From Acidobacteria bacterium RIFCSPLOWO2_12_FULL_68_19 (GTDB lineage Bacteria > Acidobacteriota > Vicinamibacteria > Vicinamibacterales > UBA2999): 64,000 bases of DNA. The stretch is from contig MELF01000038.1 in NCBI GenBank assembly GCA_001767525.1, forward strand, positions 1-64,000, read 5' to 3'. The translations under genes and the position numbers were made by a program. Below the pieces are notes generated by a model. That model was given only the letters and a program-made list of their open reading frames with translations, was not told the DNA's origin and made no database searches. Below are positions 16,121 to 17,491 of this stretch, piece by piece. Position 1 is the first letter of the stretch, and every line of letters starts with the position of its first letter.

Positions 16121-16573
16121 CTACTTGTCGTCAATCCAGTAGCCTGCGCCGATGGCCTCGACGGCCGCGCGCGCCGCGCGATCGTCGAACTCCCAGCTCC
16201 CGCCCGACACGCCGATGCCGCCGATGCAGTCGCCCTCGACGATCACCGGATAGCCGCCCTCCATCGCCGTCCACCGCTCCGGGCCCGCGGCCAGCGCCAA
16301 CCCGATCGCGTGTCCCACGTCGAGCGCCTGCGCCTGCGCGCCGTAAGAGCCGGTCGGCCGCTTGTTGGAGGCGGCCGACACCGCCTTCGTCGTCGAGGAC
16401 TGGACCGTGTGAAACCGCCCACCGTCCATCCGCTCGAGCAGGATCAGATGACCGCCGGCGTCGGCGACCGCCACGGTGATGGCAATCCGTTCCTCTTCCG
16501 CCATCGCCATCGCGGTGGCCACCATCTGTCGCGCGCCCGCGAGCGTCAGGCGCCTGGCCGGGGCGACGTACAT
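16121..16573 (-). CDS. GlcG/HbpS-family haem-binding protein
   Basis: The 150 aa match the GlcG/HbpS family: 'LTLAGARQMVATAMAMAEEERIAITVAVADAGGHLILLERMDG' at the N-terminus and 'GGYPVIVEGDCIGGIGVSGG' near the end. HbpS binds haem and senses redox stress; GlcG members are found with glycolate and propanediol genes. The ATG at 16573 directly abuts the MITE-like element (16574 on), leaving no Shine-Dalgarno of its own, so its translation signals are either within the element's end or lost. Confidence 0.85.
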   Translation of the reverse strand: MYVAPARRLTLAGARQMVATAMAMAEEERIAITVAVADAGGHLILLERMDGGRFHTVQSSTTKAVSAASNKRPTGSYGAQAQALDVGHAIGLALAAGPERWTAMEGGYPVIVEGDCIGGIGVSGGSWEFDDRAARAAVEAIGAGYWIDDK

Positions 16574-16855
16574 CTAGGAGCCTGTCCGAGTAATAGCATG
16601 GGCCGCGTTCCGAGCGCCGCGCCGGCAGATGCCAGGCGACGCGACGCAGGCAATGCCGGGGCGCATTGGCGAGGAGCGGCAACGCCGCAGATGCCGGTGC
16701 GCCGCCGGAACCCGCAGGGCGCATGGGGGTTGCGGGTGAGCTCGGCGTTGCTCGTCGTCGCCGATGCGCACGGGCATCGCCTCCTCCTCGCGCCTTGATC
16801 TCGCCTCGCAAGCCCCATGCGCGCGACCCATGCTATTACTCGGACAGGCTCCTAG
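16574..16855. mobile_element. 282-bp MITE-like element with 29-bp terminal inverted repeats
   Basis: The left end (16574-16602, starting CTAGGAGCCTGTCCGAG) and the reverse complement of the right end (16827-16855) are identical over 29 bp, and similarity continues for a few more bases. The CTAG (or TA within it) at both outer edges is palindromic and may be the target duplication. No transposase domain is seen inside; short ORFs on both strands look like shadows. It lies exactly between the GlcG/HbpS start codon and the lipocalin-like stop codon. A mobilising IS is not in the window. Confidence 0.8.
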
Positions 16856-17394
16856 CGCACACGCTCCCACATGCGGAGTGTCACGCGCTCCTTGCCGTCC
16901 GGGCCCCTTGCCACGGTGTTCAGCGAGAGGCGGTCCTGGCTCACCTCGACGAAGCGGTGCATCCCGTTGCCGATGTTGCGCGGGTTGACGCTCCCTTCCA
17001 CGTGGTGCGTCACCGATTGATCGTCTTCGTTGACAGTGTAGTGGCCGAAGTAGGCCGTGTAGGAAGCGTAGGCCCGGGCCTGCTCTTGTTCGGTCATCGG
17101 CGCCGCACCGTTGCGCGGCGGGCGCACTTCGTCGCTGTTCATGATCTGGACGTACATCCGGCCCTGAGCGTCGTAGATGATGAAGCCCGCCGGCGTCCTG
17201 CCCCGCGGATACGTCGTCGGACCGCTGCCATCAACCACCCGCGTCTCGACGCCGGCCATCCGCCAGGTGCCGACAATCAGCGACGCGACCTGCCCCCGGG
17301 GCGCCTTCGGCGCTCCCTGGGCGAAACCGGGCGTCGCCATCACCAGGATCCCGAGCGCCAACGCGGCGCAGTGCCGTACACGCATGATGTTCAT
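16852..17394 (-). CDS. Secreted lipocalin-like domain protein
   Basis: The protein has 180 aa from ATG 17394 (an alternative Met is three residues later) with a signal peptide (~1-22, ending GFAQ). It carries the lipocalin-like pattern 'LIVGTWRMAGVETR...GFIIYDAQGRMYVQIMN', then 'YTAYFGHYTVNEDDQSVTHHVEGSVNP'. Proteins of this type fold as small beta-barrels; ligands are unknown. Its TAG stop lies in the edge of the MITE-like element, so the last residue or two may have been altered by insertion. Confidence 0.8.
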   Translation of the reverse strand: MNIMRVRHCAALALGILVMATPGFAQGAPKAPRGQVASLIVGTWRMAGVETRVVDGSGPTTYPRGRTPAGFIIYDAQGRMYVQIMNSDEVRPPRNGAAPMTEQEQARAYASYTAYFGHYTVNEDDQSVTHHVEGSVNPRNIGNGMHRFVEVSQDRLSLNTVARGPDGKERVTLRMWERVR

Positions 17395-17491
17395 CCCCCG
17401 CCGACCAGCGCCTGCACAGGAGCGCAGCAAGCGTACCCGGAACAGCCGGACGGCGTCCATCGGTTCTTGGAACACGTTGCGAAACGTGCTC

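Follow-up and report, generated by a model that had tools for sequence, protein, structure and literature searches.

A CTAG-bounded MITE with IS1182-type ends and a conserved double-hairpin core in an Acidobacteria bacterium

Bacterial MITEs such as Correia, ERIC, NEMIS and similar elements are short, non-coding and multicopy, with inverted-repeat ends and a tendency to fold back on themselves, and their bodies are usually regarded as passive deletion scars. REPINs are doublets of REP sequences, GTAG/CGTC-tagged hairpin units of about 25 nt, and are moved by RAYT transposases. Among autonomous insertion sequences (ISs), IS1272 of the IS1182 family has been reported to use stem-loops as targets and to replace them, a preference for palindromic targets being reported for the family (PMC5678879), and IS5 duplicates a 4-bp Py-T-A-Pu target, most commonly CTAG (PMC5493358).

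The element analysed here lies in a 64,000-nucleotide stretch (the window) of the genome of Acidobacteria bacterium RIFCSPLOWO2_12_FULL_68_19, and resembles each of these systems in part. Like the Correia, ERIC and NEMIS-type MITEs, it is short, non-coding, multicopy, bounded by inverted repeats and able to fold back, but its length of about 280 bp, its two homologous inverted arms around a 3-nt centre and its CTAG duplication set it apart from them, as does a core that is found under many different ends and across phyla. Like REPINs, it is a mobile dimer made of two hairpin units in inverted orientation, but its arms are about 107 nt rather than about 25 nt long, it has the long terminal repeats of a DDE IS, and no GTAG-tagged REP unit was identified in it. 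The outer 20 bp of its ends and its CTAG edges are those of IS1182 ISs (including IS1272), a family with CTAG-bounded members in several Acidobacteriota genomes; unlike these ISs, it has no transposase gene and contains a double-hairpin core that none of the inspected ISs possesses, and, unlike IS1272, it duplicates CTAG and deleted no stem-loop at its target. The duplication recalls the Py-T-A-Pu duplication of IS5, whereas the transposase found with these ends scores as IS1182.

The element and its insertion site

The element, its ends and the two flanking genes are arranged as follows (positions of the window).

16121..16573, minus strand: HbpS/GlcG-like gene (PF03928, E 6e-30), its ATG touching the element
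16574..16855, no strand: complete MITE of 282 bp, both CTAG edges counted, with a net insert of 278 bp (seven full copies and an empty site in genome G001)
16574..16577, no strand: CTAG target-site copy adjoining the HbpS ATG (single (C)TAG in the empty site)
16574..16602, plus strand: left terminal inverted repeat, 29 bp, perfect; its outer 20 bp are the ends of the IS1182-family ISs L116 and L161
16827..16855, minus strand: right terminal inverted repeat, pairing perfectly with the left 29 bp
16852..16855, no strand: CTAG target-site copy containing the lipocalin stop TAG (16852-16854, minus strand; from the sequence and the empty site)
16852..17475, minus strand: lipocalin-like gene (PF13924, E 4e-29), its TAG within the target CTAG

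An earlier note on this DNA had described perfect 29-bp terminal inverted repeats with CTAG edges bounding a 282-bp non-coding element, and the sequence bears out this description. CTAG is the edge sequence at either end, and the complementarity of the end arms extends over 34 nt (16574-16607 and 16822-16855; 97% complementary overall and perfect in the outer 29 bp). A 17-mer of the element end occurs at only two sites in the 64-kb window, both of them element ends (expected 0.08). The 282-bp sequence folds at -191.5 kcal/mol, against -135.6 +/- 5 kcal/mol for shuffled sequences (z = -11), and contains neither a transposase gene nor an open reading frame conserved between copies.

The corresponding site is empty in G001, a genome of the same genus: a lone (C)TAG there marks the point at which the lipocalin TAG runs directly into the HbpS ATG, and the two flanks of the element, joined by a single CTAG, align to this site without gaps over 718 bp (84% identity). 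This single CTAG indicates that the insertion duplicated the tetranucleotide; the duplication is a plain one, and nothing was lost on insertion. The placement of the element exactly between a stop and a start codon, which the earlier note had pointed out, is thus confirmed, and follows from the target being CTAG. The same note had also proposed that one element end supplies the lipocalin stop codon, which is correct insofar as the right CTAG holds the TAG, but this TAG is already present in the empty site of G001, so that the stop codon predates the insertion.

The insertion separated two formerly touching genes. If the element is removed, a GGGAG motif lies 12 nt upstream of the HbpS ATG, and it is now about 290 bp away. 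A search for a sigma-70-like promoter for HbpS found none, and a terminator-like match at 17068 lies outside the element and is at chance level. The element has probably severed the translational coupling of HbpS to the lipocalin gene. With the GGGAG displaced and no such promoter detected, the proposal of the earlier note, that HbpS either depends on signals within the element or is poorly translated, is plausible. A different palindromic insert (GGGGTCGGAGGTCATTTAAAGAGGACACTC...GAGTGTCCTCTTTAAATGACCTCCGACCCC) is found just 3' of the HbpS orthologue in the sister species G001 (L271, about 1410-1500), and is absent from the window.

Genomic copies, CTAG targets and IS1182-type ends

Within its own genome (4.21 Mb in 52 contigs), the element is represented by seven full copies that are 98-100% identical, lie in both orientations and have unrelated flanks, and additionally by a fragment located at the end of a contig and a 55-bp derivative reduced to little more than the ends. 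A second empty site, again with a single CTAG, was found in G001 for the copy on contig C31. Additional genomic copies and single-CTAG empty sites are what the earlier note had proposed to look for, and both are at odds with a sequence that has no other copies and is conserved at this locus in distant relatives.

Six of the eight complete insertions (the seven full copies and the 55-bp one), that of the window included, are located at TAG stop codons of recognisable genes, namely gyrB (gyrase B), purA together with a convergent PilZ gene, serA, a dicarboxylate symporter gene together with a convergent dapF, lptF/G, and the lipocalin gene. A census of 464 kb returned 91 CTAGs, where 1374 were expected from base composition (i.e., about 15 times more) and 336 from a Markov model; according to a simple gene caller, 20 of these are at TAG stops, 37 within genes and 34 intergenic. 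For insertions distributed evenly among the 54 CTAGs that lie outside gene interiors, 20 of which are at stops, a binomial estimate gives a probability of about 3% that at least six of eight fall at stops. Since CTAG is rare and a sizeable share of the sites are NNC-TAG stops, surviving insertions tend to fall at gene ends, and a CTAG target combined with the loss of damaging insertions thus explains most of the stop-codon pattern. This amounts to a simple rule by which insertions can coincide exactly with stop codons and leave genes intact, namely a CTAG target in a genome where CTAG is rare and many of the remaining sites are TAG stops.

Two of the copies differ in form or setting. The 55-bp element (L009, 1501-1555; G000:C20:119074-119128) is nearly nothing but the two terminal repeats with CTAG on either side, and is perhaps an internal deletion across the hairpin. 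In another copy (L007; G000:C47:116050-116333), the CTAG touches the start codon (ATG) of a gene recognised, by eye only, as carbamoyltransferase-like, possibly a second case of a lost upstream region.

The end sequence CTAGGAGCCTGTCCGAGTAA recurs, either exactly or with one end carrying up to three substitutions, in ISs of 1475-1567 bp hosted by an Acidobacteriota genome of the same order, Nitrospira, a deltaproteobacterium, Bradyrhizobium and Dehalococcoidia. Two IS1182-type ISs (L116 and L161) are identical to the element in the outer 20 bp, and the IS of G046 differs from it by one base in this region; the transposase of the latter (P0001) scores 368 bits against the IS1182 model NF033551 (cut-off 270). 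ISs with identical ends, for which the earlier note had suggested a search, thus exist, and all are of IS1182 type where examined. Other IS1182 ISs of Acidobacteriota are CTAG-edged as well; those of G297, G001, G332 and G191 have other ends, and hence yielded no helper for the other end types described below. In the element's own 52-contig assembly, neither an IS1182 transposase nor an autonomous copy was found, and the helper may have been lost, may be unassembled, or may be of a different kind.

Overall, the element is a MITE in that it is short and without a transposase gene, its ends match those of an autonomous IS, and its copies are dispersed and accompanied by single-target empty sites. 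A helper IS in the same genome, which is usual for MITEs without being an absolute requirement, and a body derived from the IS are the two MITE features that were not found for it. We consider it very probable that the 282-bp sequence is a mobile, non-autonomous, MITE-type element with IS1182-type ends. An IS1182-family DDE transposase would move it in trans, and insertion into CTAG would leave one CTAG at each edge; at NNC-TAG stops, such an insertion would regenerate the stop on both sides, and gene ends would thus be tolerated as sites.

A double-hairpin core under varied ends

Between the terminal repeats, the body of the element consists of two homologous arms, each about 107 nt long, in mutually inverted orientation.

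16605..16713, plus strand: arm 1, a hairpin whose reading direction is from the left end towards the centre (82.1 bits with covariance model R1)
16714..16716, no strand: 3-nt centre of symmetry between the arms, CCC-NNN-GGG (same spacing in most of the listed paired copies)
16717..16824, minus strand: arm 2, homologous hairpin, inverted, its reading direction being from the right end towards the centre (97.8 bits with covariance model R1)
16781..16790, minus strand: internal loop of arm 2, 5' side, CGAGGAGGAG, tandem G-A module (from the sequence)
16751..16760, minus strand: internal loop of arm 2, 3' side, CGACGACGAG (from the sequence)

Arms 1 and 2 of many elements can be aligned together, and their pairing was evaluated with RNAalifold on 45 arms. 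The predicted pairs are formed in 94.1% of cases, compared to 69% for shuffled and 26-52% for slid alignments, with changes on both sides in 19 of 20 pairs, and the excess of pairing persists when either arm is considered alone. The internal loop has fixed G-A steps on both sides, while the Watson-Crick pairs that separate them change from G-C in one arm to C-G in the other, a pattern that corresponds to the signature of tandem sheared G-A pairs. Two-fold modules (i.e., two or more G-A steps, the inner one counted even when not closed) are present in 18 of 31 Acidobacteriota arms (2.1% of shuffles) and in 10 of 29 other arms (1.0% of shuffles), and none was detected on the antisense strand of the arms; a single G-A module is not significant alone, being present in about 80% of shuffles. 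Counts of G-U versus A-C (20:5 in arm 2, 12:13 in arm 1) do not separate RNA from DNA. In each arm, the active strand points from the element end towards the centre, so that each strand of the element contains one, and only one, arm in active polarity. Taken together, the covarying stems and the strand-polar tandem G-A loop suggest that each arm acts as a folded single strand, either RNA or ssDNA/cruciform.

This core is not confined to one type of element. Elements of about 280 bp from other Acidobacteriota families match the body at 74-84% identity, and the same core is found beneath at least eight different terminal repeats, nearly all CTAG- or TTAG-edged (among others CTAGCAGCCC..., CTTAGTACTCCC..., TTAACAGCCCGTGG..., CTAGTGTCCTGTCCC... 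and CTAGGGTCTGG...). A one-arm covariance model has matches in 27 of 119 Acidobacteriota genomes, mostly as a plus arm followed by a minus arm. Contigs fetched by end sequence gave 27 matches, in Planctomycetota, Gemmatimonadota and other Acidobacteriota, all of which sit 10-34 bp inside an end of the right polarity; since these foreign loci were chosen by end sequence, the cross-phylum result covers arms near such ends only, and many of the genomes compared are metagenome bins, in which single contigs may be misbinned. Rfam covariance models run on six loci (E up to 10) gave no credible match on the element, phage and plasmid records gave none in a DNA search with the whole element, and no description of it was found in the open-access literature searched. 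The MITE reading of the earlier note is thus supported but incomplete, as the note made no mention of the double-hairpin core that forms the body and that is conserved across phyla beneath ends of different kinds. A non-coding core that keeps its fold across phyla while its mobile ends change is at variance with the way MITE bodies are usually regarded.

Candidate roles of the core

An ordinary internal-deletion MITE of an IS1182 element would have a roleless inner sequence, shared through recent horizontal spread, and several observations fit such an origin: the ends match ISs of several phyla exactly, the copies in the own genome are near-identical and hence of recent spread, and armless elements with such ends also move. 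Two copies of an armless 117-bp element with the same type of ends were indeed detected in G058, from which it follows that the arms are not strictly needed for movement. However, inspection and folding of the untranslated parts of six full-length ISs revealed no arms, the arm model run on five ISs gave no match, and a body derived as a deletion product or piece of an IS was rejected for these six ISs. Stems that covary and a G-A loop that stays fixed and strand-polar across 65-85% identity, together with a core placed beneath at least eight different ends, likewise speak against a passive remnant, and we regard this origin as unlikely. Instead, the core could be transcribed into a structured RNA that serves the host or the element (as a regulatory RNA or a protein-binding decoy), the MITE being its vehicle. 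Structured RNAs typically show covariation and conserved tandem G-A internal loops with strand polarity, and insertions mostly at gene ends would place the core in the 3' ends of transcripts, but no Rfam family matches, the G-U bias is seen in one of the two arms only, and the core is seen almost only inside CTAG/TTAG-edged mobile elements, which leaves this possibility a serious but doubtful one. Alternatively, the arms could be a cis-acting ssDNA or cruciform feature, recognised by palindrome-targeting IS1182-type transposases and raising MITE transposition. Such a feature would fit the association of the core with CTAG/TTAG edges and not with any single end sequence, and is in line with the stem-loops at which IS1272 is reported to insert and which it replaces (PMC5678879). 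Autonomous ISs do without the arms, however, and armless elements move, and we hold such a feature to be about as credible as a transcribed RNA. It is highly improbable that the element encodes a small protein: most arm-2 copies have a Shine-Dalgarno-like sequence (AGGAGG) before an ATG, which here opens a 67-aa frame to the terminal TAG, but this ATG belongs to the apical stem, and the frame shifts between copies, with lengths of 5 to 566 aa and no conserved sequence, refute such a protein for the element family.

The interpretation that we tentatively put forward, with somewhat less than even confidence, is that of an undescribed and widespread module, an inverted dimer of an arm of about 107 nt with tandem sheared G-A loops, which would work as single-stranded RNA or ssDNA and move between genomes of at least three phyla by swapping the ends of different CTAG-targeting ISs. 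In such an inverted duplication, whichever strand is exposed or transcribed would have one arm in active polarity. One may further speculate that the arm module helps the element itself rather than the host, either because structure-sensitive IS1182-type transposases choose it or because it is tolerated in transcripts. A structurally constrained MITE body would make both a functional RNA cargo and a transposase-recruiting DNA fold testable.

Related copies in other genomes show some variation in number and size. In three genomes of one genus (G297, G311 and G381; L250-L265), the same core occurs under CTTAGTACTCCC-type ends in dozens of copies per genome, for which no helper IS was found, and some of the CTTAGTACTCCC-type end pairs are only about 165 bp apart, perhaps as one-arm versions. 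In G332, two MITE copies (L266, 193-516; L268, 234-580) are enlarged by short GATCTGGGTCCGAAGGCCCAG-type palindrome inserts inside the core, i.e., a nested small element.
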